From positions 1 through 56,141 of the IMG/VR virus record IMGVR_UViG_3300017613_000845: DNA of 56,141 nt; one strand, written 5' to 3'. Both the position numbers and the translations under genes were made by a program. This document shows positions 18,737 through 48,735 of the stretch, one piece after another (the stretch's first letter is position 1; each line of letters begins with the position of its first letter). The DNA comes from a virus. Below the pieces are notes generated by a model, which was not told where the DNA came from, ran no database searches, and saw nothing but the letters and a program-made list of their open reading frames with translations.

Positions 18737-18751
18737 GGTAGTTCCTTTTAA

Positions 18752-19140: not shown

Positions 19141-19175
19141 TTATCCTTTTCATATAAGATACCCGTATTTGCGCG
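19141..19175 (-). promoter_or_regulatory. Promoter-like element, copy A
   Basis: On the minus strand GCGC-AAATACGGGTATCTTATATG-AAAAGGAT is shared, apart from two single-base indels in G and A runs, with 20174-20204. AATACG followed about ten bases later by TATA resembles the layout of T7-type promoters. It lies just after the stop of the 95-residue gene and upstream of a 190-base leader. Either the phage RNA polymerases or the host holoenzyme could use it. Confidence 0.55.
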
Positions 19176-19178
19176 TTT

Positions 19179-19466: not shown

Positions 19467-19467
19467 A

Positions 19468-19680
19468 TTAAGACACCTCTATTACAGTACCGGGCTTCAG
19501 TTGACTCATGATGAAGCGATCTGCTTCTTTCTGAGCGTAATGCATATTTTTAAACCGTCTGGTGGAAACCAAACCGTCTTCGTCAATCATCAACTCCACT
19601 TCATTTCTGACCTCTAACCCAAGCTCTTTCAAAAGAAAGGCTTCCAGTCGACTACTTTGCTTTTTGGTTAAAGGTCTCAT
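19468..19680 (-). CDS. Hypothetical protein (70 aa)
   Basis: The start at 19680 (MRPLTKKQSSRLEAF) has AAAGGAGAC upstream; a longer in-frame start would run into the previous gene. The protein has a helical N-terminus, then strand-like segments, ending KPGTVIEVS. No family is recognised. It is an early-region gene in an operon of four with near-touching boundaries. Confidence 0.6.
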   Translation of the reverse strand: MRPLTKKQSSRLEAFLLKELGLEVRNEVELMIDEDGLVSTRRFKNMHYAQKEADRFIMSQLKPGTVIEVS

Positions 19681-19681
19681 T

Positions 19682-19885
19682 TTAAGTCTCCTTTGTGAAG
19701 TCTGAAATGATATCATCAAGTAGACCCAGAGTGCATTTACCATTTATCAATGCACTCTTTTCATCCCAACTTAATGTTATTATGAACGCCTCGGGAGACT
19801 CTGGTGTTACTTCGAGATTCAAATCCTTGTTGGAAGTTTCACGACGTATTGTGTCTGCTACACGCAATGCCAATTCGAGGTTCAT
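19682..19885 (-). CDS. Hypothetical acidic protein (67 aa)
   Basis: The start is chosen at 19885 (MNLELALRVADTIRRE) with GGGGTGGAA upstream; an alternative in-frame start nine codons earlier is possible. It is acidic and alpha/beta in pattern. Its start overlaps the stop of the 82-residue gene. No family is recognised. Confidence 0.6.
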   Translation of the reverse strand: MNLELALRVADTIRRETSNKDLNLEVTPESPEAFIITLSWDEKSALINGKCTLGLLDDIISDFTKET

Positions 19886-20130
19886 GATTCCACCCCCATC
19901 AACTTCTCCCATTCATCTTTGAGTGTTTCCAAAGAGTCAGTGATGTCATCTTGAGCCACATAGAACTTATCACGCAGCTTTCGTTGAATCGCCGCAGGTA
20001 CAACCTCAGGGACTTCTCCCAAGCGGATTTCATCTATGTCGTTTGAAAGCGTGTTTGTCATATCTTCAATCCGATCGATACTTCTTTCTAATGCCTTCAA
20101 TTGGTCTTCATCTATAATATAGCTTTTCAT
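19882..20130 (-). CDS. Hypothetical helical protein (82 aa)
   Basis: The start at 20130 (MKSYIIDEDQLKALERSI) is the first ATG after promoter-like element B, with AGAGG upstream. Most of the protein is predicted helix with heptad-like acidic repeats (DRIEDMTNTLSNDIDEIR), possibly a coiled coil. A longer frame back to 20211 runs through the promoter-like element and is rejected. It is the first gene of the presumed early transcript. Confidence 0.6.
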   Translation of the reverse strand: MKSYIIDEDQLKALERSIDRIEDMTNTLSNDIDEIRLGEVPEVVPAAIQRKLRDKFYVAQDDITDSLETLKDEWEKLMGVES

Positions 20131-20173
20131 GGTATGGCCTCTTGCAAGAGTAATGAGAAAGAACGCCCTGTTC

Positions 20174-20204
20174 TTCCTTTCATATAAGATACCGTATTTT
20201 CCGC
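20174..20204 (-). promoter_or_regulatory. Promoter-like element, copy B
   Basis: On the minus strand GCGG-AAAATACGGTATCTTATATG-AAAGGA nearly repeats copy A at 19141-19175. It is placed between a stem-loop (20218-20236) and the first of four small genes, giving a leader of about 45 bases. The arrangement of a stem-loop followed by a promoter-like element is what one expects at a transcription-unit boundary. Confidence 0.6.
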
Positions 20205-20217
20205 AATTCAATTTTTA

Positions 20218-20353: not shown

Positions 20354-20369
20354 GGGTTAATTTAACGGG
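20354..20369. repeat. 16-bp repeat element, copy 1
   Basis: The plus-strand sequence GGGTTAATTTAACGGG occurs here and identically at 42529-42544, both in intergenic DNA. A degenerate form GGGTTAATTGAAGGG is at 18970-18984. The core GTTAA-T-TTAAC is an inverted repeat, suggesting a protein-binding site or promoter element. Confidence 0.5.
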
Positions 20370-28642: not shown

Positions 28643-29349
28643 TAGAGCGCCTCCACAAATTGTAAGTTGCTCAAATCTTCGAGAATGCCGTCTAGGTAGC
28701 GTAACCCTAGAACAGAGCCGACTTCCTGATAGCAGGACATGGCAACATTCTTTCCTAGGTGGATCACTTCAGAACCGCCCACAGGCGCTGTCAACGCCGG
28801 TAACGTGGAAATGTTGGCTGTGTTTGCACCTATGTTTATTGAGTCGATATTTGTTATGAGATATACCTTATCATGGCCATTAAACTTTATAAAATCTCCT
28901 TTGAAAACTTGAGAGTCGGCGTTCAACGTCATAGCGAAGGTGCTTGCTCCAACAGTAACCGGCGCATTTGTGCTACCTGTCCCTTTTGAGAACATAATCT
29001 CACCGCCCGCGCTTGCAGGGTATTCAACCGAGGGTGTTCCATCTTGTAAACCTACTGCGGTTCCTCCATACTTGATCATCAGCGGTGGACGAACGAACAA
29101 AACCTCCGTAGCACCTTTTATCATGTTGTTTATAAAGTAATCGACAGATTGCGAACCTGAGATGCCACTTGTCTCAATACGCCACCTTTGTGCTAACCCC
29201 CTACTGGTGCGTCGTTTCAGCGAGAGTGTGTCGGACGCCGATTCTAAACGTTCCGGGGTAACCGAAAGAGGTGATAGGAACTTACAAAGGAGTTGACCTT
29301 CACTTCCGTCTGCGTCATTCGCTGTTGTGATATCTAATACTCCAAACAT
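28642..29349 (-). CDS. Distal tail protein (235 aa)
   Basis: Beta-rich protein directly after the tape measure; the stop of the latter and this ATG overlap. The region QRWRIETSGISGSQ followed by a strand-rich, Gly/Ala-rich middle is consistent with a distal tail or tail-hub component as found in this position in lambda-like and marine siphophages. No catalytic motif is seen. The assignment rests mainly on gene order. Confidence 0.6.
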   Translation of the reverse strand: MFGVLDITTANDADGSEGQLLCKFLSPLSVTPERLESASDTLSLKRRTSRGLAQRWRIETSGISGSQSVDYFINNMIKGATEVLFVRPPLMIKYGGTAVGLQDGTPSVEYPASAGGEIMFSKGTGSTNAPVTVGASTFAMTLNADSQVFKGDFIKFNGHDKVYLITNIDSINIGANTANISTLPALTAPVGGSEVIHLGKNVAMSCYQEVGSVLGLRYLDGILEDLSNLQFVEAL

Positions 29350-32300
29350 TATCTATACCCCTTATCTCTGTTGTAAGCATTTATGCCGGTGGCTAACTGT
29401 GGTAGCATTCCAAATACCTCTTTACGTGTCTGTTTTGAAACATCGCCTGTTATGCTCAGATTCACTGTTGTCATATCTTTCGATCGCGCATCGGCGGATT
29501 TCTGCAACATCGAACCTCCTCTGTCGGATGACACAGCACCACCTTTGGCGAAGTGTCTTAGCTTGTCATCATTAATAGCTTTCACCAATGATCCGTATTT
29601 TCTGGTGGACTCTGCATTAATTACATATTCACCATCCGAAAGCATTGCTGGAATACTGTCTGAGGTGCCTGTACCAGGACCGCTTATATAACCACCTGTG
29701 GCCGCCGCTAATACTGGACCACCCTCAGAGAATGAAAATAGTGTCTTCAAAACACTCCCTATCAGCTTTCCAATGCTCTCCCCAATGCCTCCAAATGCAT
29801 CTTGGAAGCTTGACTCGAATACACTGGCGATTCCCTTAAACACTCCATCAACCATCTGTTCAGAGAATGTGTCCATGAGATTTGAAACTAAGCTGTCTCG
29901 TAAGCGATTGGTGAAGGTACTCCAAACGGACTCACCCTCATCAGCTTCGCCTTTGAAGAGTCCTGAGAAAGCGCTTTGCATCTCACCTTTCATTGCCGAT
30001 GCGAAAGCCGCAGTCTGCTCCGCCAATTTTTCACTGGGGTTTTCAGTGGCCTTCACCAACTCTTCACCAAACTTACGTTCCAATTTAACTAAATGTTCAG
30101 CAATCAATGCTCTGGAAGCTTCATCAGTGGCTGGGTCTAGCTCTTCTAAAGACGATTTCAAAGCAATCATCGCTTTCGCTATTCCTTGTAACATAGAATC
30201 ATTTGCATTACTTACCATCTGATAGGCCTGCTCATCGTATGATAGATTTGCTTCTTTGAAAGTACCACGAGCCGACACTCCGAAAGCCTCACCTTTGCCG
30301 TACTTCTCTTTGTATTTATTCACTTGACTGTCACGTTCACTCTGTTGCGCAAGTCTTCCAAAGTTGTTCTTGTTATCATTGAAGTCCTCAACCTTATCAG
30401 CAAAGTTCCAAGCCGTCATCAATAGGTTGCGTAAATGATCTATAGGGAGGTCTTGTAAAGATTTAACATAATCGGTGAGTCTCGGGAATTGTTTTGTGAT
30501 CTCACCTATGGCGTCATCACGAGTGACCTCGCCGATCATCATGTTGCGCTCCATCCGTGAAGAGCCTGTCAGAATATCACGCAGACTTTTGGCTTTTCGT
30601 AAAGCTCTGCCGAGCTGGTCGGCGATTTCCTCAAACCGATGTGCGTTGTTCTTGTCCAGAAGCTGTCTTCTAATTGCTTGGATCTTACTGTCAGCTTGTT
30701 GAAGTCGTCCCAGATCTTCTTTGTTTATGAACATCGCCTGACCTTCACCAATACCCATACGGCTCAGCATACTAAAGATTTTACCGGCGCTGTCGTAAAG
30801 CCTATCCAATTCAATTGTGGCAACCTTATTCATAAGTATGAGTTTCTCTTGAATCAGTTTATCAATTCTTAACTTATCTGCGGTATTATCTAGATTTTTG
30901 ATATCTCTGTTTAATTTCTCTATCTCATCGGCCATCACTCTTAAATCGGCGAGCGCCGCGTCTCCGAAGCCTCCAAGATCTTCAAAGGCCATATTCAATC
31001 CGAATGAGGATAGACTGGCCAGCATTCCGTTGACGGTCGAAGGCATCTTATTTAAATCTTCCAAAGCATCTCTGAACATCTTATTCAAAATGCTCCAAGC
31101 TTCGGGAAGCTCATCGAAGGTGTCTTCTAGATAGTCCATTGCGTTTTGCATGTCAAATAGATGTTGAGCACCTGCTTTTAGAGCTTTCTCTCCTTTAAAC
31201 TCCAGAACGCCTGCAGTATCGATTCCTAAATAGTTTCCAAAAGCGATTTGAGCTTTGAGACCGCCTTCATTCAAAAGCTTCTTCTGAAGATTTTTCATGG
31301 TGGTGTCTATCTCTCTTTCTAATCTCTTACGCTCTTTGTCACCCAACTCCACATCAACTCTCAAAGCCTTCTGATCTTCAAAGATTGCCCTGGCCATACT
31401 GGATAGTTCACCAGCTAGCTCAATGCCAATGTCTTCAAAAGCGTCGTCATCAAAACCTTTGAGTTTTATGTCGCTGAAAAGATTTTCCATATTTTCTTTA
31501 GCAGAGACTCTAAACGCATCCGAACGTGCTTTCAATTCGTCGAATTTAATTCTTAAGTTCTCAACGTCACCAACAGCCTTTCGCCACTCTTCAAAGTTGG
31601 CGGCGTTTCGAATGGCCTCGTCTGCTTCTTTGGCCTTTAATCCAATATCCTTCATCGCAGATAGTATTGGGTCGCTGGCCGCAAACATCTCTTCGCGGTT
31701 TATACTCACACCAATAAGATTCATATTCGATTGTAATGCATTCAGACTCTTTTGGAAAGTCTTTATATTTGCATTTCTCTCATTGCTGGCGAAAGCAGCA
31801 TCCAGGCGTGCTTCCACATCGATGGCGGCATCTGACATCCTTTTAAATACACCGGTGGTGTCATTTTCAAGAGTTATTATATTATTAGGCATGGACCTTT
31901 GTATCGCCTCCAATGCCTTCATCGACACCAAATATGTCTGCATTGCACGCGTTAGGCCTAGTTCCTCATCAGCACTTATGTCATACGTCTCACCTAACTT
32001 CTCTCTAGCTTTTAAAATATTCTTGAGCATTTCTTGGACAGCAGAACCATCCTCACCCTTAAAGCCTACATCGTAAAGAGTCTTTCTTTTAGCTTCATGG
32101 GCTTTACGAGCATCAGTGGTCTCTCTCTTATCTTTTTCAAAATGATCATTCCAGCTCCTTATTGTGATCATCATACTTCCGAATCCATGAGCAAGATCCG
32201 CCATACCTTGCCCAACTTGGCCGTACCAGTCTAAATCTTCAAATTGAAACGCCTTCAGCTGTTCTGTCGTACCAACGTAATCTTTAGCCTGTTTAACAAT

Positions 32301-35300
32301 TAAACGCTTTGTGTAGTTATCCAATCCACGATTCAACGCCTCAAGAGCTTTTGTGTTCTCCTCTGAATAATAACCAGTCTCTTCATACTCGTTCTGTGCC
32401 TCCACGAGAAGATCGTTCAACTCTTTAACTCGCTTCTTTATATGGGCATCTTGACGTTTAGACAGCTCGTCCATGTCGACACCCTTCAGAGTGAAATCGA
32501 TTTCCACCCCTTCGGCTTCAGCCAACGCCTTAGCATCTTCATTTAACCCTTCGAGTGTCTTCTTAACTTCAGCCTTCCAACCGACGAGCTTCTTAAGCCA
32601 GTCAGTCATTTTACCGCCGAATAAGAAATAGTCCGCAACAGCCACAACACCGACAGCTATCCATGTCCAGATGTTTGTGAAAAATCCGAATATGAGCTTT
32701 CCAAAACCTTTTAAAATCGGTAAGATGGTTTTTATTGTAAAGATTGCATGAAGCTGTCTACCAAACATAGTCGCAAGCCCTGTGCCTATCAAAGTGCCCC
32801 AGACTTCACCTATGCCCAGCATCTCTCCAGCCATACTACCTACAAGTCCTCCGACACCAGCTATGAACAGGCGAGAGAGTCCGCTAATCTTCTTTGTGGT
32901 GTGGCTCAAGCGTCTGGTTATTTCGTCGAAAGCTTGCGCCATCCCTAAGTCCACTCTGGCACTTGTTCCGATACGCAAGAAGATACCGCTGATTAAGTCT
33001 TTCCATTTTATGAACTTGATGGCAAGACCAGCAAGTGTGGCGGCAACTGCCAATCCCACCAACGCAAGCGGATTGTCAAGTACCAAAGCGTTCCAATGTT
33101 TAGCGACATCGTCCATTATCCCTTTCGCTTTCGAAACTGGATCTTCTCTATCGCCTTCAGCGGCGAATAGTGAATTTGTCATTGCTATTAAAGCCACACC
33201 CAGCCCAACTTTGAAGGCCACCCGTCCCAGCTTGCCGTAAGCCAATGCACCCAACAATCCGTCGGCACCGGCCATCTTCACGGCCTTTGCGCTCAACCTG
33301 GTAAAGCCTGCGGAGATCCAACCCATCAAACCACCGATTTGTGTCTTGAAATTGGATACATTTTTACCTGCAAGAACACCGGAGAAGTCAATACCAGCTA
33401 AGCTACTGCTTACTGTGGCCACCAGACTGGTGATGCCTGCCGACATATTTCTAAAAGTTCTACGGATTTTAACCAGAGTTCGCTTACCGCCAGCTCCCAG
33501 TGCAATCTGCTCCATGATAGAAGAACCCGCAACCATAAGAGGTGCTAATGTTCGAGCCAGTCTAGTAGAAGCGCTTCGGTATGCGTCCGCCAGAATATCA
33601 TGGATTTTGCCACCCAATCCGACATTGCCTGCCAAGATATCTCCCAGTGTGTTTTGACCAACGTTGCTTGAGCCTAATCGACCCATCCAGTTTCCAACGT
33701 CCCTGAGCACGTCTCGTGTCTTGTCTTTGATAACGCCCCAGCCGTCTCCGCCTGTCATTGTCAGGTACAGCAGCCCACCTTCCAGTGCAAAATGCGCCAT
33801 CTGGTTATTTGCAAATACAGAATCCAAACCACCGAAAGCACTTATCAAAAGACCGATCCCTGCGATTACACGTGATGGTCCAAATCTTCCAAAGAGCTGT
33901 CGTGATAAAAAGCCTTCACGTGCTATAATACTACCATTGGAGCCCATGATTCCGAAAACCATCTTATTGAGACCAGTGAGCGCGGTCTGTACATATTTAA
34001 ATGTCTTTCCTTTAAATCCAATTGCCCCTAATCCTTTTAGAGCACCAGCTCCGAATATAAATGCTCCCAATAGACCTAAAGGTCCAGAGGCACCTACTAA
34101 GTCGCCTACTTTAAATAGCCCTCTAAAGATTGGACCGATAAGCATCAATTCCGATAGAAAGCCTCTCACAAACTCAGAAAGCGTTCCGAACACAACGTTC
34201 AGAACTTCAGGAAGGGTTTCTATTGCTGTGTTTATAAACGTGGCGACGGCACCACCAGCTGTACGTGCTATCTCACCGACAATGCTGACATCCAGAAGGT
34301 TTCTACTGACAGCATCCACAGCTAATGTACCTATCTTAGCCAACGCCGCGACTATACCCGTTAACAGTGCCTTTTTCAAAGCACCGTCGGGGAATAATGC
34401 CTTGACGGCTAAGAAGCCAATACCAAGCATTGCTCCTGTGACAGCGTGTGGTATCCTTTTGTGAATCTCGTCTACGATATGTAAAACAGATTCTTTAAGA
34501 CCTTCCAAGACCTCTCCGAAAGTTCTCTTCTTTGGTTTCTTATTGAGAATGTCGCTGAAATCAACATCGCGTAACTTATTATATAAGAACACTCCGTTGG
34601 AGGTTCCTTCTACTTCTTTGAATATGGCAATAGTCCCATCTCTGAAACTCAACAAACCACCACGAACCATGTTCCAAAGTCCTAATGAGGAGCTTACGAC
34701 ATTATCTATCGTATCAGTCCACCAAGAACTACCTATTACTTTTTCATATATTTCATAGAACACATTAATAACTTGTCGTCCGAATTTTACAATATTCTCC
34801 AAAGCTCTATCTAAGGAACCTGAACTTAGTTCTTTAATATCTTCGACAAGCCCACTGACTCCCTCTTTAGCGAGTAAGACAAAAGCGACTCTGATCTCAG
34901 TCAGTCGCCTTAAAACAGTACTTAGGCCTGTGCCTATCGCAACGCCGACCAGCGTCATGATGTCCACTATCTGAGTGCCTAATTCTCGTATTGCTTTTAA
35001 AGGTCTTTGTAAAAACCTCGGACTGATTTCAGATAGCGCATCGAACATTCTATTCCAAGCGATTCTGACAATTAGTCCCAATCCTGCGAAAGCATTGACA
35101 AGCACATCCACTAGATCTGCGGCGAAGTATTCAACCGTTTTCATGAAGCCTACTGTTGTAAAAACAAGGCTTCCCAACAAGACCTCTCCAAAGTCTTCTA
35201 ATGCTTCTTTGGGATCGTCTTTGATATTTTTAAAAATATCAATAAGCCCTTTACCTAAAGAGACCGCTAGCGTGCCAGTCAAGAAACTGATTTTGGATGT

Positions 35301-37358
35301 AAGATTTACTAAAGCGTTGAGGATTCCTGCAACAGCGTTTCCGATGTTTGCTCCTAAAAGAAAGAAGGAGTCGATAAGCGTGAGTGTGAACATCTTGACG
35401 GCTTTTATTGGCTTCTTTAGAAACTTCGGACTTATGTCCAAAGCCACATCGAAAGCTTTACCCCAGTATTTACTGAGTGTCGCACCTACTCCAATAAAGA
35501 AGATTGTGAGACCTTGGGTTAGTAGTTTGAGGCCTTCAAGCACCAGAGGGATTGCCGAAAGCACAGCAATTCCGATGACAGTTCCCACCTCGCGCCAATC
35601 TTCAGAAGTCATCTCTGCTATCTTTTTAAACCAACCACTTATGGTTTTTCCGAAATACTTGAAGATAGACATGGTCTTATCAACAGCGTCTGCTGCTAAA
35701 TCGTACAGCCCAGACATTGTGTCCGTCCACCAGGAGCCGCCTATAACGGCTACATAAATGGCGTGGAATATCGAAATGACATTCTTTCCGAATTCAGACA
35801 TCTTGCTTACAACGTTGTCCAGTGTTGCGCTGTCTAGTATCTTTTCGTAGAAACGTTTAATTACATCAGCTATTGCGAGAAACACACTTTTTATAGATGG
35901 AAACATAACGTCTGTTAGGAGTTTATCCAATTCCCAAAAAGATAATCGTACGTTGAATGTTGATCTTATTATTTCAGTAAATGATTTGAGTAATGACTCA
36001 ATTTGGCCAGGACGTACCAGAGCTAAAGTATTCGGAATGAACCCCCAATATTGTTTAAACTCCAGGAACTCAACACCTATTGTGATCATTGCGGTTGCGA
36101 TTTTGTCAGCCCATGAGTTTACCTGAGCAATCAAGGCATCACCTAGCTGCTCAAAAGCTGCATGGTACTTTTTCAAATTCTCGATACTGAACATCTTTTG
36201 TATAGTTTCAATATCAAAACCTGCTGCCGCCCAATATTGAGGACTCAGTCGTTTCAAAGTCTTGATGGCTTTATCTACATCACTTTCAATCTTTATCAGA
36301 TCTATAAATTTAAAACGATTCCACCTAGCCACGTTCCCACCGAAGAAATCGTCGACATCTCTTATTATTCTGTTGATATCTTCGCTGAAAGTGTCTGAGA
36401 AAAAGCCTTGAGGCATAATACGCGCAAAAGATTGACCGATACCGCTTAGTATTTTCAAAAACGGCCCAGCTATATATTTAGCGGTCTTCTTCCACATGTT
36501 ATATTGATAGACAACTCTCGTGCCCAATTCGAAAGCCCCGTCCGAGGCCTTTCTTATGGATTTGTCCCAAGAGATCATAGCCCTACTAATACTCTCTGAA
36601 ACCCCCAATCCTTTATCAAGTTCGTTGATGTAGATCTTTATACCGTCCGTTAAGACAGCTTTGGTTTTGGTGACGGTAGGTATTACATCTTTAAATTCTT
36701 TATCCAGTACAGCAGCTTGAGATGCAATAGCTTCAAATACAGCTTTGGATTCCAATGCACCCGCCTCACCCAGCTTTTTCAAAGAGCCAAGTGGCACGTC
36801 CAATCCATCAGCTATGGCTATCGCGAGTCGAGGAATCTGCTCCATGACCGCTATCAATTCTTGCCCTCTAAGCTGCCCTGCGCCCAAACCCTGGCCGAGC
36901 TGCACGATGGCCGACTTCGCGGATTCTGCCCCAGAGCTTGCCAGAGTGGATGCCTGTTGCACAGCTTTCGTGACCAACAGCAGCTTTTTCATGTCAACGG
37001 TTCTGCCTCGCATTGACCGACCGAATACTCCGAATGTTGTTACAGTGTTGTCCAACGATACTCTGGTCTCTTGTGCAATCTTATACAAGCCTGCTTGCGC
37101 TTTTGCTAATTTATTTGTTCTTCCTGTAACTACTGCTATCTTGTTCCCCAGGTCAGTGAACTCAGAAGAAATCTTCGCAACAGAACTCACCGAAACATGC
37201 GCGGCGAGCGCTGTGCCTAAGCCTACAAAGGCTCTACTCAGATTCTTGGAAGCTCGAGACGCCGTTGATTCTATATTTTCCAGCGACTTTACCACTTTCT
37301 TAAGATCGCGTTCCGCTCTTTGCGTTTTCGCATTTACGTCAACAATAACACCAGACAT
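29349..37358 (-). CDS. Tail tape measure protein (2669 aa)
   Basis: The protein sets tail length and probably forms a channel for DNA entry. The N-terminal 250 residues contain the tape-measure domain (GLGAGQLRGQELIAVMEQIP, then LAIAIADGLDVP). Long hydrophobic helical segments and coiled coils fill the middle, and the C-terminus has GPGTGTSDSIPAMLSDGEYV, a typical tape-measure end. Start 37358 (MSGVIVDVNAK) is supported by TAGGAG; an in-frame ATG 11 codons earlier has none. Internal duplications are visible: VIGGSWWTDTM and VIGSSWWTDTI about 335 residues apart, and ISPKFLKKPIKAVK and ISPRFLQRPLKAIR about 136 apart. At about 0.15 nm per residue the tail could approach 400 nm. Confidence 0.93.
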   Translation of the reverse strand: MSGVIVDVNAKTQRAERDLKKVVKSLENIESTASRASKNLSRAFVGLGTALAAHVSVSSVAKISSEFTDLGNKIAVVTGRTNKLAKAQAGLYKIAQETRVSLDNTVTTFGVFGRSMRGRTVDMKKLLLVTKAVQQASTLASSGAESAKSAIVQLGQGLGAGQLRGQELIAVMEQIPRLAIAIADGLDVPLGSLKKLGEAGALESKAVFEAIASQAAVLDKEFKDVIPTVTKTKAVLTDGIKIYINELDKGLGVSESISRAMISWDKSIRKASDGAFELGTRVVYQYNMWKKTAKYIAGPFLKILSGIGQSFARIMPQGFFSDTFSEDINRIIRDVDDFFGGNVARWNRFKFIDLIKIESDVDKAIKTLKRLSPQYWAAAGFDIETIQKMFSIENLKKYHAAFEQLGDALIAQVNSWADKIATAMITIGVEFLEFKQYWGFIPNTLALVRPGQIESLLKSFTEIIRSTFNVRLSFWELDKLLTDVMFPSIKSVFLAIADVIKRFYEKILDSATLDNVVSKMSEFGKNVISIFHAIYVAVIGGSWWTDTMSGLYDLAADAVDKTMSIFKYFGKTISGWFKKIAEMTSEDWREVGTVIGIAVLSAIPLVLEGLKLLTQGLTIFFIGVGATLSKYWGKAFDVALDISPKFLKKPIKAVKMFTLTLIDSFFLLGANIGNAVAGILNALVNLTSKISFLTGTLAVSLGKGLIDIFKNIKDDPKEALEDFGEVLLGSLVFTTVGFMKTVEYFAADLVDVLVNAFAGLGLIVRIAWNRMFDALSEISPRFLQRPLKAIRELGTQIVDIMTLVGVAIGTGLSTVLRRLTEIRVAFVLLAKEGVSGLVEDIKELSSGSLDRALENIVKFGRQVINVFYEIYEKVIGSSWWTDTIDNVVSSSLGLWNMVRGGLLSFRDGTIAIFKEVEGTSNGVFLYNKLRDVDFSDILNKKPKKRTFGEVLEGLKESVLHIVDEIHKRIPHAVTGAMLGIGFLAVKALFPDGALKKALLTGIVAALAKIGTLAVDAVSRNLLDVSIVGEIARTAGGAVATFINTAIETLPEVLNVVFGTLSEFVRGFLSELMLIGPIFRGLFKVGDLVGASGPLGLLGAFIFGAGALKGLGAIGFKGKTFKYVQTALTGLNKMVFGIMGSNGSIIAREGFLSRQLFGRFGPSRVIAGIGLLISAFGGLDSVFANNQMAHFALEGGLLYLTMTGGDGWGVIKDKTRDVLRDVGNWMGRLGSSNVGQNTLGDILAGNVGLGGKIHDILADAYRSASTRLARTLAPLMVAGSSIMEQIALGAGGKRTLVKIRRTFRNMSAGITSLVATVSSSLAGIDFSGVLAGKNVSNFKTQIGGLMGWISAGFTRLSAKAVKMAGADGLLGALAYGKLGRVAFKVGLGVALIAMTNSLFAAEGDREDPVSKAKGIMDDVAKHWNALVLDNPLALVGLAVAATLAGLAIKFIKWKDLISGIFLRIGTSARVDLGMAQAFDEITRRLSHTTKKISGLSRLFIAGVGGLVGSMAGEMLGIGEVWGTLIGTGLATMFGRQLHAIFTIKTILPILKGFGKLIFGFFTNIWTWIAVGVVAVADYFLFGGKMTDWLKKLVGWKAEVKKTLEGLNEDAKALAEAEGVEIDFTLKGVDMDELSKRQDAHIKKRVKELNDLLVEAQNEYEETGYYSEENTKALEALNRGLDNYTKRLIVKQAKDYVGTTEQLKAFQFEDLDWYGQVGQGMADLAHGFGSMMITIRSWNDHFEKDKRETTDARKAHEAKRKTLYDVGFKGEDGSAVQEMLKNILKAREKLGETYDISADEELGLTRAMQTYLVSMKALEAIQRSMPNNIITLENDTTGVFKRMSDAAIDVEARLDAAFASNERNANIKTFQKSLNALQSNMNLIGVSINREEMFAASDPILSAMKDIGLKAKEADEAIRNAANFEEWRKAVGDVENLRIKFDELKARSDAFRVSAKENMENLFSDIKLKGFDDDAFEDIGIELAGELSSMARAIFEDQKALRVDVELGDKERKRLEREIDTTMKNLQKKLLNEGGLKAQIAFGNYLGIDTAGVLEFKGEKALKAGAQHLFDMQNAMDYLEDTFDELPEAWSILNKMFRDALEDLNKMPSTVNGMLASLSSFGLNMAFEDLGGFGDAALADLRVMADEIEKLNRDIKNLDNTADKLRIDKLIQEKLILMNKVATIELDRLYDSAGKIFSMLSRMGIGEGQAMFINKEDLGRLQQADSKIQAIRRQLLDKNNAHRFEEIADQLGRALRKAKSLRDILTGSSRMERNMMIGEVTRDDAIGEITKQFPRLTDYVKSLQDLPIDHLRNLLMTAWNFADKVEDFNDNKNNFGRLAQQSERDSQVNKYKEKYGKGEAFGVSARGTFKEANLSYDEQAYQMVSNANDSMLQGIAKAMIALKSSLEELDPATDEASRALIAEHLVKLERKFGEELVKATENPSEKLAEQTAAFASAMKGEMQSAFSGLFKGEADEGESVWSTFTNRLRDSLVSNLMDTFSEQMVDGVFKGIASVFESSFQDAFGGIGESIGKLIGSVLKTLFSFSEGGPVLAAATGGYISGPGTGTSDSIPAMLSDGEYVINAESTRKYGSLVKAINDDKLRHFAKGGAVSSDRGGSMLQKSADARSKDMTTVNLSITGDVSKQTRKEVFGMLPQLATGINAYNRDKGYR

Positions 37359-37382
37359 CTCAAGTCTCCTATTAATATTTAA

Positions 37383-37401
37383 GCCCCACATTATGTGGGG
37401 C
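37383..37401. terminator. Strong stem-loop before the tape measure gene
   Basis: Eight-base arms GCCCCACA / TGTGGGGC enclose a three-base loop. The T-rich flank (AGTTTTATTTATTT) is on the plus-strand side, so it would be a better terminator for plus-strand transcripts, yet no plus-strand gene is present. On the minus strand it lies 24 bases before the tape measure start. It may be an attenuator or RNA stabiliser. Confidence 0.4.
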
Positions 37402-40523: not shown

Positions 40524-41729
40524 TTAATCGTGGAAAACAGGTAAAATACCGAGGCTCAGTGCCGAGTCGGTTTTACGAACCCAAGTACCAGTAGTGTCTG
40601 CGAGAACATCCGTACAAGCTGTAAGAGCTGTAGGTGTGCTTGACTCAACTGCGTACTTATACTCAGCATCGGATGGGAATTTATCTTGAGATCCCGCCCA
40701 ATTGTAACCGGCTGGGTGTATAACATAGCCCCAACGGTACCAAATCTGAGTAGTACCACCACCTTTATAAGCGCGAGGGTTACGGCCAATTTCAACATCA
40801 TTTTCAACATTCAAAGATTCCATAGCTAAAGCGCCAGGAAGTACAATAAATGAAGTAAGATCGCCACCGATATCTACACCAGCACCGGTGTTCAGCTTAG
40901 TAACTTCTGCAGAAGACATGCTTTGAGTAGCACGAGTCTGAATCAGTCGGAACTTACCTTGGAAGATAGTATTGAAGTCCATATTACCTTCGGTAACACG
41001 ATCTTGGTCAACTAAATTAGCTGAGCGTAAGGAAGCCATAACTGCAGGACTTGTCACCAAGTATGCATAAGCAGGCTCATAGTCTTTCCATGCCATTCCC
41101 ATAGCATTCAAGAAACCTTCAGCTCGTTGTGCACCAACGTAAGCAGCATTAGCTGCACCTGCGCCGTCTTTACCCGGAGCAGTAATAAGAGGTACGGTGT
41201 CTCCTAGATCAACATAGAAACCGAATTTCTTATCAGTAGGATCATTCACGAACGATTGTCCGCCAGTACCAGTTCCACCGCCACCCACAGCTGCGCCGTT
41301 GATAGCTTCTGAAATGGCAACACCCTTCAATACAGCAAGGATAGCGTCATGCTCGTCTTGCGCACGAGTCTCACCGAAATCACGACCGACTTTCGCCAAA
41401 CCGTCATCTTGGGTAACAAGCTTTTGCAAGTTAACTTTCTCAGCACCGTGTGTACGGGCTGTCTTAACATAGTTCAGATACTCAGAACCGTAAGTAGTCA
41501 TGTCACCGTCAGCTGAATCAGTTAACGATGCGACATTTACTGTAGGGTTAAGAGGCTTGAACCAACGCATCTGTCCAATGTATGTTTCACCACTGGTGTC
41601 GATGTCTGGGTTTCCGCCCACAATATCTGTGCCTGATAGTTTTCGAGCATTAGTATATGCTTCGTCGGAGTATCCACCGAGAGTCTCTTGGAGGACGTAA
41701 TTAGTCGCTCCAGCTACATCTTGTCTCAT
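40524..41729 (-). CDS. Major capsid protein (401 aa)
   Basis: The protein follows the scaffold gene and precedes the connectors. The sequence contains an N-arm (DTSGETYIGQMRWFKPLNPT), a Gly-rich loop (AAVGGGGTGTGG) in the middle and a beta-rich end with a GALAMESLNVENDVEIGRNP segment, consistent with an HK97-fold capsid protein of the type found in DUF4055-portal phages. GAGGAAATT precedes the ATG. There is no protease gene nearby, so assembly probably depends on a non-cleaved scaffold. Confidence 0.85.
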   Translation of the reverse strand: MRQDVAGATNYVLQETLGGYSDEAYTNARKLSGTDIVGGNPDIDTSGETYIGQMRWFKPLNPTVNVASLTDSADGDMTTYGSEYLNYVKTARTHGAEKVNLQKLVTQDDGLAKVGRDFGETRAQDEHDAILAVLKGVAISEAINGAAVGGGGTGTGGQSFVNDPTDKKFGFYVDLGDTVPLITAPGKDGAGAANAAYVGAQRAEGFLNAMGMAWKDYEPAYAYLVTSPAVMASLRSANLVDQDRVTEGNMDFNTIFQGKFRLIQTRATQSMSSAEVTKLNTGAGVDIGGDLTSFIVLPGALAMESLNVENDVEIGRNPRAYKGGGTTQIWYRWGYVIHPAGYNWAGSQDKFPSDAEYKYAVESSTPTALTACTDVLADTTGTWVRKTDSALSLGILPVFHD

Positions 41730-41746: not shown

Positions 41747-42445
41747 TTACCGTCGAAGTTTACCTTCTTCGGCCATTTTGAGAACTTCACTTTGTGGTCT
41801 ATCAAACAAAGACGTTGATTTACCAGAACCTGTGCTAGTTCCCGTACTTGAGCTGCTCGTACCAGAGCCACTAGATGTTTTTGCCTTAAAGAGAAAACCG
41901 TTATTTTCATCTTCTGAAAAAGCGGTCACGTATTCTGAAATTGATTTCCCTGAGGTATGTACCCATGTGCCTTCGTCGTTCTGAACAAGTTTCTCCGTAA
42001 TATCTTTAAATGCCATTTCATTAGCATTTACACTACGGAAATCAAGAGTTCTCAAAGCTTCTCTGACAGTAATGTCTCTGGACAGTTCGACATTTGTCTT
42101 CTCGAGCTCTGCATTTTTAGCCTTCTCTGCGGTTAAAGACTCGTCTCTTTCCGCCAATCGTTTATCGAAAGCCTCTTGATGCTTACCTTCTTCTTCAAGG
42201 CGTTTTAATTCGTCATCCTTTTCTTTGTCTTCATACGTTTTAACTTTGTCTAATGCAGCATCACGCGCCGCATAGGCATTGTCTAAGTTCTCTTTAATTG
42301 GTTTCAATGCTATTTCAATACCTTCTTTGATTTGATCTTCTATGGAAGGTGTCTGATCCTTCGAAGAAGTCTTATCGTCAGTTTTGGTTTTGTCGTCATC
42401 GCCACCAGTTTTATCATCTTTTGTAGTCTTGTCTTCATCAGCCAT
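41747..42445 (-). CDS. Capsid scaffold protein (232 aa)
   Basis: Start 42445 (MADEDKTTKDDKTGG) is preferred to an in-frame start nine codons earlier because GGAGAA lies upstream. It is strongly acidic at the N-terminus with DDKTKTDDKT repeats, then a long coiled coil (LDKVKTYEDKEKDDELKRLE, AEKAKNAELEKTNVELSRD) and a Ser/Gly-rich linker before a basic C-terminus (QSEVLKMAEEGKLRR). This layout with a basic end is typical of phage scaffolds that bind the inside of the capsid shell. It lies just before the capsid gene. Confidence 0.85.
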   Translation of the reverse strand: MADEDKTTKDDKTGGDDDKTKTDDKTSSKDQTPSIEDQIKEGIEIALKPIKENLDNAYAARDAALDKVKTYEDKEKDDELKRLEEEGKHQEAFDKRLAERDESLTAEKAKNAELEKTNVELSRDITVREALRTLDFRSVNANEMAFKDITEKLVQNDEGTWVHTSGKSISEYVTAFSEDENNGFLFKAKTSSGSGTSSSSTGTSTGSGKSTSLFDRPQSEVLKMAEEGKLRR

Positions 42446-42500
42446 TACATGTTTTCTCCGAGTACAACTCATTGGGGGACATCACACAGTAATGCCCATG

Positions 42501-42545
42501 AAAAATATTCTTAAGCTATATTTAGCTTGGGTTAATTTAACGGGG
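42501..42545 (-). promoter_or_regulatory. Intergenic hairpin and 16-bp repeat copy 2
   Basis: GGGTTAATTTAACGGG (42529-42544, plus strand) repeats the element at 20354. Next to it AAGCTA-TATT-TAGCTT (42513-42528) forms a six-base hairpin, and a T5 run follows on the minus strand, weakly terminator-like. It separates the MuF-RNA polymerase gene from the scaffold and capsid genes, so a promoter or attenuator for the capsid operon is possible. Confidence 0.5.
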
Positions 42546-42550: not shown

Positions 42551-45500
42551 TCAGCCCACGCCGTACCAATATGCATCTTCCTCAAAAAGCTGTCGAACAT
42601 CTTTTAGGATATCTTCTTGAGTCAGTATATCAGTGTCTCTTAAACGTCTACCACCTACTCGTGACCTTCCTACAACAGGAATAAGACCCGATTCGATTGC
42701 TTCATTTAAGTATTTGTCATAAAGATTTCTAGGCAAACCTCTCGCGAGCATCTCATCCAGAGTATCCTTAATTGTATTTGATTTCAGAGCCTTGGCATAA
42801 ATTTGACGGAGACCATCCCTAGCTTTCAACATATCAGCCGCATTTGTGAAAAATGCATCATGAATAGTTGATGTAGGAACACCGTTCTTCTGACCCCAAA
42901 GGTGGAACCGCTTCACAACAACAGCATCATTGGAATGGTTACCGTTTACAGCGAACGCCGTTCGAGCTTTCGTGGCGTCGGCGATGTCGTTAATATTACC
43001 GGAATCGTTTATTATCTGCTCCCACCAAGTAGCTTCTGATTTTTGAGGCACTTGTAGGATGTTTGTAATCCATTCCCCATCTTTATTACGATACCGAAGG
43101 CGCTCTTCGAAGACCTGCGTGAAGTTTTGCTCAATTGTTTTCCCATCAAAGTTTTTCCATGGAATGCTTGTCCACTTCGATGGTAATTTATTTGCTTCAA
43201 AGACTTCTACTTCATAAAGCTTTTGCAACTTTAATAACTCAACCTTCAGATATTTCGCCCCTGTTCTTCTTTTTGTGGCGGCTTGCGTCCCATAGAACAT
43301 ATTATGCAAAGTGCCATTGGGTTTCCACCAGCTGAATTTTTGCAGAACTCTCTGAGCGAAAGAACCTTGAACAGGAATGCCTAGAATTTCAGCCAATTTA
43401 GAGTCAATCTCAGTACGCTCTCTTGAGCCATAAAGTTTCAGCTTTATCAAGTGTTTCCAATCGAAAGCGCTCTTTGAAGGTTTGGCGTTTATCAAGAAAT
43501 CTTCCGCCAGTCTACCTAAGAATTTTGTGAAGTCTTTTAAAATAGGCACCTGAATAGACAAATACTCGCTCATTATCTTGGCAATCTCTTTAAAATCTTG
43601 AGGAGTAACCACCTTTACATACGATCGAGTCATTCGGTTCACCAGCTCTTTCGTAGCTGGGTCTAAAAAGTACAATTGCTCTATGATATCATTACCAGGG
43701 TCAGTGCCTTTATTGAAAATGTCTCGAACGTTAGCACGTAAAACCTTCAATTCAGCTACTATGTCCTTGTCCACTAACTCATACCTGGCTATTCTCGCGG
43801 AGATTTCACTTAGAACAGTCTCTCTATCAGCCGCTTTAACCACTAGTGTTCCAGGCTTTCTGTCCAAAACTTTAGCAAGCTTACCCTCTACATTGAGAAT
43901 GCCTGTGCGTTCGCCAGCGCCGTAGAACGTAACCATGTTCTGAGCCTTAGCAGCCTTTCTGAGGTCTTTCTCAGTCAATCCAAATTTCTGATTTAATTTT
44001 CTAAAACGAGGATCGTTGAAAGTACTGGCTGCTATTTCATCATAAAGTCTTTGTTTTTGATTAGTAGGTATAACATTACTCAGTTCAGCAAGTTGTTTAT
44101 TTCTTGTGGTCAATGCAATAATCTGCGCACCTGAAGATGAGGCATCCTGTTCTAAAGCTAACGCAGTACGATACTGGCGCAATGAAGCAAGCGCTTTCTT
44201 AGAGTAGTTGCCAGTCAAGTGATTATCTATCTTCGCCACTTCAATCGCAAATCTGAAAAATTTTCCCAATTCTTCACCCTCTATCTTGGACACGAAATCC
44301 GATTTGAGAACGGCTCTGAAATCGTTTGGCTTACCACGCATCATATGATTTCCAATCTTAACCAAATGCGGACGCCATTGTTCAGCAATCTTTTGTCTTC
44401 CTGTAACACTCAAAGAATTAAATCTTCCTTCGAAATAGTCATCAAGGCCACCCAGAAAAGCTCCTACCTGGTCCTGTAAGTTTTTGAAATCAACTTCACT
44501 AAAGAACTTAGACTCCGCTGTATTCAAGAAGGGTCTAAAAGTTTCTCCAGACTGCGGACCAATAAAACCACGATCATAAATCCTGGCACGATGATCAATG
44601 AAAGCATGATTACTAAAAGCTGACTTATTGTTCCTAAACCAGTCCATCGCCTTAAAGCGTTCATAAGAGTCTCCTCGAGAGATTATATACTTCTTATATT
44701 GATTTAAATCATCAAAATATTTAGCGGCGCCTCGGTCATCTTTAAAATTCATCAGACCTGTTATAAAGTCATAAAAGTCTTCATCTATCTTATATTTCGC
44801 TGAACTGGTCCAGTTCAGAGCTGTCACCAACTCTTTATCTATGAACTCTTCAGGAAAGTCTGAAAAGCTGCTGGTAGATGTAACAGGGATACGAGTGTCT
44901 GAGTATAGCCCTACACGATTCTTAGTAAAATATGTTTTATAACCTTCTCTGAAATATAAACGATTCTTAGGCTCTGTCACTCCGATGCGTAACCCCACTT
45001 CAATACTTCTGTTTAGCTCAGCGTATCTTCTGATCCTATCGTCAGTTATCCTTAAGTTGTACGAAAACGTATCATAATATGGTCCGAAGTATTGACCACT
45101 CATTCTACTTTTCATTCTTCGTTTTTGAACACCTAGTGTCTCTAAGTCGAAGAATGTCTTATTTGACTCTAGAAGCTTCTTCCCCAACCTATGCCAGGTG
45201 AGCCGAGTTCCATTTAGGTTTGCCAGGTTGTAAAGATCTCTACCCAACGCCACAGACAACTGATCAACGTCTGGACCGTCTGCTAGTGAGAGTCTGTGTG
45301 CAAATTTCAAGTAGAACTGTTGAAGCCTATCACCGTCTAGCCGAGATCTGATATGATATGGTATATGTCTGTCAAAGACGTCCCGTAGCTCACGAGCTAT
45401 CTTAGGAGCAGTTCTATCTTCCCATTTATTACGCTCTTTTATATTACTAATAAAGGTAGCGCTGAGCTTGTCAAAAGTAGTTGGACCTAATACAGGATCT

Positions 45501-47164
45501 ATATAGTTGCTCTGTGCAAGCTTTTTCAATAGATTTGCATCTTTCCTTAATGTCGTTTCCACAAAATCTGAAACATTCATTACATCAAACTTGATCTGCG
45601 CTTGTGCAACGGCTTTGAAATTAGTCCAAGGCTCAGCGTTCTTACGAAACCTGGTGAATAAGATTCTAAGATTATCAGTCACAACAGCTCTTTCATTCAC
45701 ACTCATGTAGCCCGAGAGACTATTTATGAATTTATCAATATACTCCTTATCCGCCGTCTTCAACTCCAAACTCTCACGAACCAACCTTAAATTATTATCC
45801 AAGACTGCTTGTGATGGTGGAAAGAGACGAGCGTCGTCGTAACGGCCTGTTACTGGGTTATAAATCAGTTGATCCTCTCGTGGAAGCTGCGTCATCACTT
45901 TACGTTTTTGGGCACGCTTAGTGCCAATTAAGTTACCTCTGTAATTGGTTAGAGAAAGCGTGCCGTTTAATTCTTTAGATTGCAATACATAATAATCTCG
46001 CAGCGTATTAGTTAGCTTGCGGTTGTCAATAAAGTCATCAGGAGATATAACACCCAACTGCATCGCATCTAATTTCTCTTTAGCGTGCGCAAACCGTTGA
46101 GTATCGCCTGCATGGTTATATTCAGTGTCTGTCAATTTACGTAACTGTCGAATTCCCAGGGTTCCTCCTTCCGGAGCCACAAACTTAGATAATGGCAACT
46201 TACCCTTGTTGAATAGATCGACCTTTTGATAATCACCCAAATGTCTGAATTGCACTTTCTGAGGTTGCCTCAACAACCAAGCACTGTAAGACTCTTTCAA
46301 CGGCGTCTGACCGTCATAGAAAGCTCTTTGTCTTGGAGATAGTTTCTTTAAATTCCTTTTACGAACTTGAGCAACGCTCTCCAGACTTGCTAAATCGTCC
46401 CAACTCTTAACCACAGGAACCGTAGTCGAGCGACAGTTATAGTGTGCCGGAGGTAAATATCTTCTGTCATCCATGGCGAAGACCTTACCGTCACGAGAGG
46501 CACACACCTGCGTAGTCCTGCCGTCCAGAACAGCCACATATTGCCAGCCTTTCAGGGCTTTTTCGTTGGCGGCGTAAACTGCGTGATCTACTTGTGCATG
46601 TACGCTTGTCATGGCCGTTGTGGTCAAAGCTCTGGATTGGTTTCGAGTAATCTTATGAACATTGCCCTTACGAACATTCCTAGCTATGACTGCCTCAGTA
46701 TCACCGTCCGCAATACCTTTACGAATGATTTGAGCAATACGCTTACGTTCATTCGCCTGTATGCCTTTCCAACCCATCTCCAAAGTTTTGTTTTGGTGTA
46801 AGGGAGTGTGTAATACAATATCTTCTGAGATACGTCTGGCTGGATTTTTCACTCTCCAAACCTTACTGAGAGCCGCCTCTAAGCTTTGATACATGTATGA
46901 AGTCTGGTCTGCCGCCAAATCCAACAAAGATCTCTTTGAAACTCCGAAAAGCTTTTTATAGGTCTTTGTCAACTCCACATCCAAGTTTCTTTGAAATTGT
47001 TTGAAAGTTTTAGAACTCAGCTTAGATTTTCGTATCAACGAATCAACACGCACAACATGTCCATTCAGAACTATTTCCAACTTCTTGTGAGAATTCATCT
47101 CGTAAAGTCGAAGCATTGCCGAACGATCTATTTGCTTATCATATATTGATGTATTTACATTCAT
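42551..47164 (-). CDS. MuF-domain head protein fused to a single-subunit RNA polymerase (1537 aa)
   Basis: Residues about 130-250 are a MuF domain, with the family signature DGRTTQVCASRDGKVF (214-229) and PPAHYNCRSTTVPV (238-251). The C-terminal part carries every catalytic motif of T7/N4-type RNA polymerases: FIDHRARIY at 855-863 (T7 DWRGRVY), a PQSGETFR segment, motif A Asp1007 in QDASSSGAQ, motif B Arg1069, Lys1073 and Tyr1081 with the exact T7 spacing (T7 R627, K631, Y639), GNHSNDA at 1408-1414 and motif C His1435-Asp1436. The motif B to C distance (355) is larger than in T7 (173). The gene lies between portal and scaffold, and its ATG overlaps the portal stop. It is probably a virion RNA polymerase held in the head by the MuF part. 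Confidence 0.88.
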   Translation of the reverse strand: MNVNTSIYDKQIDRSAMLRLYEMNSHKKLEIVLNGHVVRVDSLIRKSKLSSKTFKQFQRNLDVELTKTYKKLFGVSKRSLLDLAADQTSYMYQSLEAALSKVWRVKNPARRISEDIVLHTPLHQNKTLEMGWKGIQANERKRIAQIIRKGIADGDTEAVIARNVRKGNVHKITRNQSRALTTTAMTSVHAQVDHAVYAANEKALKGWQYVAVLDGRTTQVCASRDGKVFAMDDRRYLPPAHYNCRSTTVPVVKSWDDLASLESVAQVRKRNLKKLSPRQRAFYDGQTPLKESYSAWLLRQPQKVQFRHLGDYQKVDLFNKGKLPLSKFVAPEGGTLGIRQLRKLTDTEYNHAGDTQRFAHAKEKLDAMQLGVISPDDFIDNRKLTNTLRDYYVLQSKELNGTLSLTNYRGNLIGTKRAQKRKVMTQLPREDQLIYNPVTGRYDDARLFPPSQAVLDNNLRLVRESLELKTADKEYIDKFINSLSGYMSVNERAVVTDNLRILFTRFRKNAEPWTNFKAVAQAQIKFDVMNVSDFVETTLRKDANLLKKLAQSNYIDPVLGPTTFDKLSATFISNIKERNKWEDRTAPKIARELRDVFDRHIPYHIRSRLDGDRLQQFYLKFAHRLSLADGPDVDQLSVALGRDLYNLANLNGTRLTWHRLGKKLLESNKTFFDLETLGVQKRRMKSRMSGQYFGPYYDTFSYNLRITDDRIRRYAELNRSIEVGLRIGVTEPKNRLYFREGYKTYFTKNRVGLYSDTRIPVTSTSSFSDFPEEFIDKELVTALNWTSSAKYKIDEDFYDFITGLMNFKDDRGAAKYFDDLNQYKKYIISRGDSYERFKAMDWFRNNKSAFSNHAFIDHRARIYDRGFIGPQSGETFRPFLNTAESKFFSEVDFKNLQDQVGAFLGGLDDYFEGRFNSLSVTGRQKIAEQWRPHLVKIGNHMMRGKPNDFRAVLKSDFVSKIEGEELGKFFRFAIEVAKIDNHLTGNYSKKALASLRQYRTALALEQDASSSGAQIIALTTRNKQLAELSNVIPTNQKQRLYDEIAASTFNDPRFRKLNQKFGLTEKDLRKAAKAQNMVTFYGAGERTGILNVEGKLAKVLDRKPGTLVVKAADRETVLSEISARIARYELVDKDIVAELKVLRANVRDIFNKGTDPGNDIIEQLYFLDPATKELVNRMTRSYVKVVTPQDFKEIAKIMSEYLSIQVPILKDFTKFLGRLAEDFLINAKPSKSAFDWKHLIKLKLYGSRERTEIDSKLAEILGIPVQGSFAQRVLQKFSWWKPNGTLHNMFYGTQAATKRRTGAKYLKVELLKLQKLYEVEVFEANKLPSKWTSIPWKNFDGKTIEQNFTQVFEERLRYRNKDGEWITNILQVPQKSEATWWEQIINDSGNINDIADATKARTAFAVNGNHSNDAVVVKRFHLWGQKNGVPTSTIHDAFFTNAADMLKARDGLRQIYAKALKSNTIKDTLDEMLARGLPRNLYDKYLNEAIESGLIPVVGRSRVGGRRLRDTDILTQEDILKDVRQLFEEDAYWYGVG

Positions 47165-48735
47165 TCATCTAAGTTTCCATTCTTTTGAGCATTCTGGAAA
47201 AACTCATCTTGTTCACTATCATCTGAAACAAGTTCGTCTTCATTGATTTCTTTCTGCCCTTCTTCATCGTCATACTCAGGTGAAAGAATGTCATTCTGTT
47301 TCAAGATCTGTAACCAAATTGAGCGAGGTATAATACCATTTTCATACCACTCTGTAGCCAATCTCAACCAGTCAGCGCCCAGGGGTATTGGGTTGAAATC
47401 TGCAGACAGGCTGAAAGAGATATCAGACTCCAACAAATCGTCGCCATAACGCCAATTCAACATGAACACAATGATCTTATTCATTATCGCGCTGACCTTG
47501 CTATTTAAGGAACCTAGTTGAGCAGTTTGCGCGGCGTTTCTGATTTCCAAAGCAACACCTGATTGAGCTGTTTCAGGAGTCAACATTCGAATTCCCAACT
47601 TGGCCATCTCTTCGATAGCTGATGCAATAGCTTTCTCATAATCAGCTAGAGCGTCCGTGGGAGTTTTTAGAATGTCTGCTTTGTCTTCAGGTCCAAGTTT
47701 CATCCAAGAACCTAAGCCCCCATCCACCATTTCTTCAAAAGCTTCATCACTCATATCAGAATGGATAACAGGAGTATATGTGGCGGCTCCGTATAGCAAA
47801 TGGTTTCGCCTACTTATTTTATTATATAAGCTCACTTCCTTATCAACAATCGGTGATAGAATAGGTTCAACAATCTCCAGGCTGCCGTTCAAAGGCCATG
47901 CAGGGATTTGTGTGAGTCTTTCACCATGAGCTGTAATTGACTGTATTGTATCCACCAATTCAAACTTCAATTTAGAATTCTTCATCTCGATGTGCCTATG
48001 TCCCGCAACCACAGGAACTTGCTTAACTTCTGTGTCACGTTCATAGACTCGTATTTGATAATAGCCATCCATGATTTCATGTACATGTACAGTATCTTTG
48101 AATATAGGATGGAATTCATTTTCATCATCAAAACTCGGAATATTGTTACGGGTGATGACACGTCTGAGTAAATTATGACCTTGAGCATCTGTATCCATGT
48201 GCCAATTGATCACACTTTGACCTTTCCAAAGCACCGGATAAGGTGCATACTTCAAAGCTTCATCCGCAGTCAATTCATCGGCATTCTCTATAACAGGGTA
48301 ATCAACATACACCCAAGCTCTGGATGTTTGAATCTCTTCCCATAGAGCAGTATCCAGAAAAGCCGTCATAGATGAGTTATCTTGACTAAAATGATTCATA
48401 AGCCACTCATAAAGCTCATCAGGACTTCCTTCTGGAAGTTCCAAAATAGGTTTCTTTCTAAGCAATCCTCCAACAAGCATCTTTGCGAATTGAGCCACGA
48501 TTCCTGGTAGCTCAGCTTCGGCTTTGTAAAATTGATATTGATCGATCTCCATGCTCGGCGAAAAAGGAATCAACACGTTGCCCATATTGGGATCAAGATA
48601 GCTGTCCAGAGCTTTAACGTAACGTTCACCACTGCATATTGCCTTACATCTATCCCATATTGGCTTCATCGATTCATATTCTGCGTTTGGATCCGCAACA
48701 GTTTTTGTCTTATCAGCGGCGTTCGTCACTGCCAT
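47161..48735 (-). CDS. Portal protein (DUF4055 type, 524 aa)
   Basis: The dodecameric portal forms the DNA gate of the capsid. The N-terminal region WDRCKAICSGERYVK, the YGAATYTPVIH and GSWMKLGPEDKADIL segments, and the helix TPETAQSGVALEIRNAAQTA match the DUF4055 portal family. The acidic C-terminus (EDELVSDDSEQDEF) is typical. GAGAGGATAATCTA precedes the start. It is followed directly by the MuF-RNA polymerase gene, as MuF genes often follow portals. Confidence 0.9.
   Translation of the reverse strand: MAVTNAADKTKTVADPNAEYESMKPIWDRCKAICSGERYVKALDSYLDPNMGNVLIPFSPSMEIDQYQFYKAEAELPGIVAQFAKMLVGGLLRKKPILELPEGSPDELYEWLMNHFSQDNSSMTAFLDTALWEEIQTSRAWVYVDYPVIENADELTADEALKYAPYPVLWKGQSVINWHMDTDAQGHNLLRRVITRNNIPSFDDENEFHPIFKDTVHVHEIMDGYYQIRVYERDTEVKQVPVVAGHRHIEMKNSKLKFELVDTIQSITAHGERLTQIPAWPLNGSLEIVEPILSPIVDKEVSLYNKISRRNHLLYGAATYTPVIHSDMSDEAFEEMVDGGLGSWMKLGPEDKADILKTPTDALADYEKAIASAIEEMAKLGIRMLTPETAQSGVALEIRNAAQTAQLGSLNSKVSAIMNKIIVFMLNWRYGDDLLESDISFSLSADFNPIPLGADWLRLATEWYENGIIPRSIWLQILKQNDILSPEYDDEEGQKEINEDELVSDDSEQDEFFQNAQKNGNLDE

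Follow-up and report, generated by a model that had tools for sequence, protein, structure and literature searches.

The virus of IMG/VR record IMGVR_UViG_3300017613_000845, analyzed here over positions 1 to 56,141 of that record (the window, one strand of 56,141 nucleotides), encodes a MuF head protein fused to a complete single-subunit RNA polymerase (ssRNAP). We consider it likely that this polymerase is carried in the virion and injected into the cell, that it reads early genes from a promoter-like motif, M1, and that a second, free phage RNAP then takes over. The fusion gene lies on the minus strand and begins with an ATG codon, and its coordinates and length of 1537 residues are exactly those given by an earlier reading made without database searches (the sequence-only reading). 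Its parts are as follows.

42551..47164, minus strand: MuF-ssRNAP fusion gene, 1537 aa (Pfam, PHROGs, homologues, AlphaFold model)
46133..47164, minus strand: MuF module, residues 1-344 (PF04233; 32% identity to Kolga gp59)
46421-46741, minus strand: Pfam MuF domain, residues 142-248 (PF04233, E=2.1e-14)
42554..45367, minus strand: ssRNAP region, residues about 600-1537 (PF00940; AlphaFold2 and Foldseek)

Both halves are recognized by curated profiles. Phage_Mu_F (PF04233) matches residues 142-248 with 54.6 bits against a curated Pfam cut-off of 29.6 (E=2.1e-14), and the head morphogenesis family phrog_241 spans residues 1-626 (PHROGs, E=1.4e-63), in agreement with the N-terminal MuF domain proposed earlier. 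RNA_pol (PF00940) matches in two stretches, the best at residues 1380-1475 (E=2.2e-12, 47 bits against a Pfam cut-off of 22), and the RNA polymerase family phrog_414 also matches the protein (PHROGs, E=1e-20). The polymerase had been placed in the last 700 residues; all of its motifs lie there, but the polymerase region is longer, the domain probably starting around residue 600. The following catalytic motifs were located by motif check and alignment.

44582..44596, minus strand: DxRxR motif, residues 857-861 (DHRAR)
44144..44146, minus strand: motif A, catalytic Asp1007 (within EQDASSSG)
43922..43960, minus strand: motif B, R1069/K1073/Y1081
42926..42937, minus strand: HSND motif, residues 1410-1413
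42857..42862, minus strand: motif C, His1435-Asp1436

The order DxRxR, A, B, HSND, C and every residue position given in the sequence-only reading proved exact, as did its statement that motif B has the T7 intervals, with Lys 4 and Tyr 12 residues after Arg. D1007, K1073, Y1081, H1410, H1435, and D1436 are invariant across 82 aligned relatives wherever sequence is present, and these include Asp1007, Lys1073, and Asp1436, the three residues whose absence from homologues had been named as evidence against the assignment. Tyr1081 and His1410 correspond to T7 residues that are linked to the use of rNTPs. A lack of the polymerase right-hand fold had been named in the same way; such a fold is predicted for the C-terminal half by an AlphaFold2 model covering residues 350-1537 (pLDDT 75, pTM 0.70), for which T7 and mitochondrial RNAPs make up 50 of the 50 matches listed by Foldseek against the PDB (best match E=2.2e-17, probability 1.00). 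A profile search of the PDB with the fusion protein likewise matched T7 RNA polymerase entries only, and collinearly. An AlphaFold2 model of residues 1-640 was discarded because its confidence of 58 was too low, and a phmmer match to 1uly (E=0.002), weak and in a nondiagnostic region, was disregarded. Residues 1224-1331 (43172-43495) are missing from two relatives, Roseobacter phage DSS3_VP1 and contig L067, and are mostly modeled at low confidence, as for an optional insertion.

The aligned motifs of the fused enzyme follow the T7 pattern (DxRxR, DASSSG, RxxxK, YG, HSND, HD). HHalign matched the fused polymerase to T7 RNAP (5.8e-6) and to N4 RNAPII (1.6e-5), with no profile match to the N4 mini-vRNAP (E=0.13, 25 columns). 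In a phylogenetic tree the fused enzymes, including that of DSS3_VP1, form a single clade; the free RNAPs of these phages fall outside it and cluster with the free RNAP of DSS3_VP1 and with Kolga and T7-like RNAPs, this deep placement being uncertain. As judged from sequence comparison, the fused enzyme is a distinct ssRNAP lineage whose deep placement in the tree is uncertain because core identity to all outgroups is only about 13-21% (about 20% for T7). An origin as a recent duplicate of the free RNAP is not supported, the two belonging to separate clades of low identity.

The fused enzyme would work like a virion RNAP, and the parallel with phage N4 drawn in the sequence-only reading holds for function, as it was proposed there, and not for family: membership of the N4 vRNAP family is ruled out by motifs, profile comparison, and tree. 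Like gp50 of N4 (Schitoviridae), the protein carries an ssRNAP domain inside a large fusion, with a putative virion location here, and as in N4 a block of small early genes precedes the gene of a second phage ssRNAP (RNAPII in N4), the early transcription after injection that is known in N4 being proposed here. In contrast, the motifs of N4 vRNAP are degenerate (TRVGR for DxRxR and FDG for HDx, against DHRAR and HDAFF here), it has about 3500 aa and no MuF domain and belongs to a short-tailed phage, whereas the present protein has 1537 aa, a MuF domain, and a long-tailed context, and the two lie on separate tree branches. With T7 RNAP the fused enzyme shares all catalytic motifs and the predicted fold, but it differs in being fused to MuF and encoded in a head operon rather than as an early gene.

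The head module surrounding the fusion gene contains the following genes.

47161..48735, minus strand: portal protein gene (phrog_145, 2.9e-58), with a 4-nt overlap with the fusion gene
41747..42472, minus strand: scaffold protein gene (phrog_206, 3.1e-9)
40524..41729, minus strand: major head protein gene (phrog_247, 3.7e-19)
29349..37391, minus strand: tape measure protein gene, 2680 aa (phrog_17300, 2.9e-51)

On the transcribed strand the order is portal, fusion, scaffold, major head protein, and tail genes, then a block of small genes, the free T7-like RNAP, and a T7-like replication module. Based on the 2680-aa tape measure gene, this is a long-tailed phage. Since the fusion gene overlaps the portal gene and precedes the scaffold and capsid genes, the polymerase would be made with the head proteins, and it would then serve early genes only if packaged. 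A location within the head operon also suits a polymerase that is made late and acts as a second late RNAP in the producing cell, its MuF part being a tether to heads or a relic. We regard this as very unlikely, as MuF proteins are components of the procapsid interior (PMC6316719), and the fusion has stayed intact between this group and DSS3_VP1 even though these phages already have a free RNAP.

The MuF module of residues 1-344 is shared with gp59 of Pelagibacter phage Kolga at 32% identity.

L193 45152-47053: Kolga gp59, MuF with a putative zinc metallopeptidase

As the similarity ends near residue 344, the border of the module lies near that position. Kolga gp59 continues past MuF into another domain with HEFAHH, matching Peptidase_Mx1 at E=9e-5, below the Pfam cut-off; sequence comparison thus suggests that the C-terminal part joined to the MuF module behaves as exchangeable cargo. 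The SPP1 portal targets gp7 into the procapsid (PMC6316719), and MuF or gp7-like fusions to toxins or effectors are proposed to be injected (PMC6316719, PMC5512222). The protein described here resembles these effectors in having an N-terminal MuF domain beside the portal gene and a C-terminal enzyme that is proposed to be injected. C-terminal domains described on MuF proteins in excerpts of this literature are PBECR, 2H, RelA/SpoT, and toxins, a polymerase is not mentioned among the fused domains in the available part of a survey of MuF toxins, and a portion of the paper on MuF and polyvalent proteins (PMC5512222) associates virion RNAPs with N4-like phages.

The fusion recurs in over 100 metagenomic viruses. 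When viral contigs were first scanned with the full-length query, 148 stretches matched; a profile of the polymerase half matched at least 574. An assembly artefact or chimera is ruled out since many independent contigs have the same fusion. Homologues of the same architecture, which the sequence-only reading had proposed to look for, are also found in named phages: EBPR siphovirus 1 (gp47-gp49, 57% identity), where an HNH-bearing insertion interrupts the fusion copy, whose pieces are annotated as distinct genes, and the Roseobacter phages DSS3_VP1/DSS3_PM1 (Naomviridae; gp108, 30% identity over 91%), the gp108 of DSS3_VP1 exceeding both Pfam cut-offs (PF04233 and PF00940). Existing annotation in EBPR siphovirus 1 and in DSS3_VP1/PM1 is as a head or minor head protein only, and the EBPR paper of 2011 makes no mention of RNA polymerase. 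In the searchable open literature we found no description of a MuF-RNAP fusion; prior notice may exist in the description of DSS3_VP1. A host link to Gammaproteobacteria was set aside as weak, the genome-contig matches coming from one metagenome-assembled genome only, one match apparently being contig L004 (74,179 bases).

The virion-RNAP reading is strengthened by the free RNAP and by the M1 motif, which lie together in the window and had both escaped the sequence-only reading.

14787..17036, minus strand: second, free T7-like ssRNAP, 749 aa (phrog_414, 1.5e-108; PF00940, 9.9e-65)
17102..20211, minus strand: block of small genes (candidate early genes) between the M1 sites and the free RNAP gene
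19149..19174, minus strand: M1 promoter-like site, GCGCAAATACGG + GTATCTTATATGAA (motif scan)
20179..20204, minus strand: M1 promoter-like site, GCGGAAAATACG + GTATCTTATATGAA (motif scan)

A free ssRNAP is encoded by DSS3_VP1 and by all 14 contigs that were chosen for the fusion and measure at least 60 kb; the EBPR siphovirus 1 record, which is labelled partial, has the fused RNAP only. Two classes of motif, M1 and M2, were derived from intergenic sequence. M1, YGCGSAAAAANNGGTATCTTATATGA, is a highly conserved promoter-like motif made up of a 13-nt core and an upstream block at fixed spacing, almost invariant in 29 sites, the upstream block having played no part in site selection. Across 14 genomes there are 35 unique gene-direction sites, and 29 of these precede the free RNAP gene by no more than 7 kb (for uniform placement, P about 2e-24). 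Ten genomes have one to three M1 sites followed by small genes and then the free RNAP. Scanning for M1 by itself gave 102 stretches; from these, 19 further contigs with a length of at least 60 kb were picked, and all of them encode both fused and free RNAP, the fused gene being cut by the contig end in three of them. With regard to hairpin promoters, of the kind that N4 vRNAP recognizes upstream of the start site, M1 has no hairpin of its own. A stem of at least five pairs follows 56% of the sites against 13% of shuffles, the former count taking in four chance matches on the opposite strand. These hairpins, directly 3' of M1, have site-specific stems and A-rich loops and possibly form the 5' ends of early RNAs.

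Early transcription in T7 itself starts with the host RNAP, and M1 might be read in the same manner, the fused RNAP being active at a later stage or at other sites, for instance on no more than a few genes. Kolga lends this some weight, as it has a free but no fused RNAP, so early genes there can be expressed without the fusion. Nonetheless, we think host recognition of M1 unlikely: the near-invariant 13-nt core with its fixed-spacing block is unlike sigma-70 sites, a sigma-70 scan of 14-22 kb gave matches below chance and none at M1, and the fusion is present in every M1 contig tested.

The preferred model, in which the fused RNAP itself is injected and reads M1, would proceed as follows. The MuF module, like SPP1 gp7, would bind the portal, so that a few copies of the protein come to lie within the procapsid. 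Upon infection the fusion protein would exit via the long tail, either together with the DNA or before it, and its C-terminal T7-type polymerase would use M1 to transcribe the free RNAP gene as well as the small early genes. The free RNAP would then transcribe later units, with M2-type sites as candidates, including the portal-MuF-RNAP head operon, whose expression would reload the next virions with the fused RNAP. Against the model, passage of the fusion protein, about 175 kDa, through the tail would require it to unfold; the failure to recognize M1 in DSS3_VP1, the absence of a fused RNAP from Kolga, and the poor AlphaFold2 model of the MuF half also count against it. The analysis establishes the fusion, its predicted fold and catalytic residues, its place in the head operon, the second RNAP, and the motifs with their placement; we infer packaging, ejection, activity, and the pairing of polymerases with motifs.

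Thermus phage P23-45 offers a close parallel in being a long-tailed phage with an RNAP fused to a structural protein (gp96), and an equivalent two-RNAP cascade has been demonstrated in this siphovirus with unrelated two-barrel enzymes, the gp64 nvRNAP gene being expressed from promoters of the first RNAP and two promoter motifs being recognized (PMC10770324). The P23-45 enzymes are related to cellular RNAP, whereas the fold here is T7-type, and the fusion partner there is the tape measure rather than MuF, the tape measure here being the separate gene at 29349-37391. The P23-45 authors propose that transcription is coupled to DNA entry through a pore (PMC10770324), and SPP1 gp7 supports the initiation of infection (PMC6316719). 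Both points could favor a fused RNAP packaged and ejected mainly as a motor that pulls DNA in by transcription, the genes read mattering little. We find a mainly motor role quite unlikely, given that the placement of conserved M1 sites, at the free RNAP gene and the block of small genes, indicates promoter-directed use; the two roles are, moreover, compatible.

M2, ANCCCGTTAAATTAACCCT, lies upstream of other units, with 64 sites in gene direction and none in reverse in the window and its relatives.

42530..42543, minus strand: M2 site CCGTTAAATTAACC between the fusion and scaffold genes
20355..20368, minus strand: M2 site upstream of the M1 block
near 2341, 7416, 19334, 29404, and 45934 of DSS3_VP1 (L002/L195): TAATAGGTTACGTTAAAGAGGGGGA sites, before several units

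M2 sites are often paired, about 50-160 bp apart. In DSS3_VP1 no M1 was recognized despite the presence of the fusion; the T7-like motif TAATAGGTTACGTTAAAGAGGGGGA has five copies there, one of them 47 nt ahead of the portal gene. M1 may be read by the fused enzyme and M2 by the free enzyme. M1 belongs to a single phage clade, so that its co-occurrence with the fusion cannot by itself assign either motif to an enzyme.

The known settings of virion RNAPs are few: N4-like short-tailed phages, crAss-like phages, jumbo phages, and the tape measure fusion of P23-45. Virion RNAPs and MuF effectors are each known; what appears to be new is MuF joined to a separate T7-type lineage with its own candidate promoter class. 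On balance, we favor the view that widespread long-tailed phages possess a distinct, MuF-borne virion RNAP of T7 type with its own 26-bp promoter, M1, and a two-polymerase cascade that would need no host RNAP for the first genes. If true, a T7-type polymerase on MuF is a further simple route to a virion RNAP, with hundreds of metagenomic members, and one would expect a second specific pairing of promoter and polymerase beside the T7-type systems. The loading of an RNAP and its injection through a long tail become testable, and key experiments are practical because the name of DSS3_VP1 appears to point to a cultivated host, Ruegeria pomeroyi DSS-3. Annotations as "head morphogenesis" can hide polymerases.

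Group I introns interrupt the fusion gene in several relatives, at or near motif B (about residues 1074-1079) and, at another site, just before H1410 of HSND.

L078 5278-5592, L080 9467-9733, L081 13187-13463, and L051 14213-14419: group I introns (Rfam RF00028)

Introns in the most conserved catalytic codons are typical of essential enzymes, and their position here indirectly supports polymerase activity being under selection. Reading frames adjoining these introns resemble homing endonucleases, and the HNH gene gp48 of EBPR siphovirus 1 splits its fusion copy at the same place as the introns. An Rfam search of the window itself found no RNA families, group I introns included; a GIY-YIG (SegE-like) endonuclease ORF adjoins the exonuclease gene at 7421-7882. 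An in-frame insertion of about 216 aa near residues 1106-1120 occurs in L070-L074 and L077 (about 13364-14011 in L073), with no obvious intein or endonuclease features on reading. In five further contigs (G017, G021, G029, G030, and G032) the fused and/or free RNAP genes are broken into several pieces by insertions, with as many as four or more pieces in G029, a pattern that points to repeated invasion by introns.
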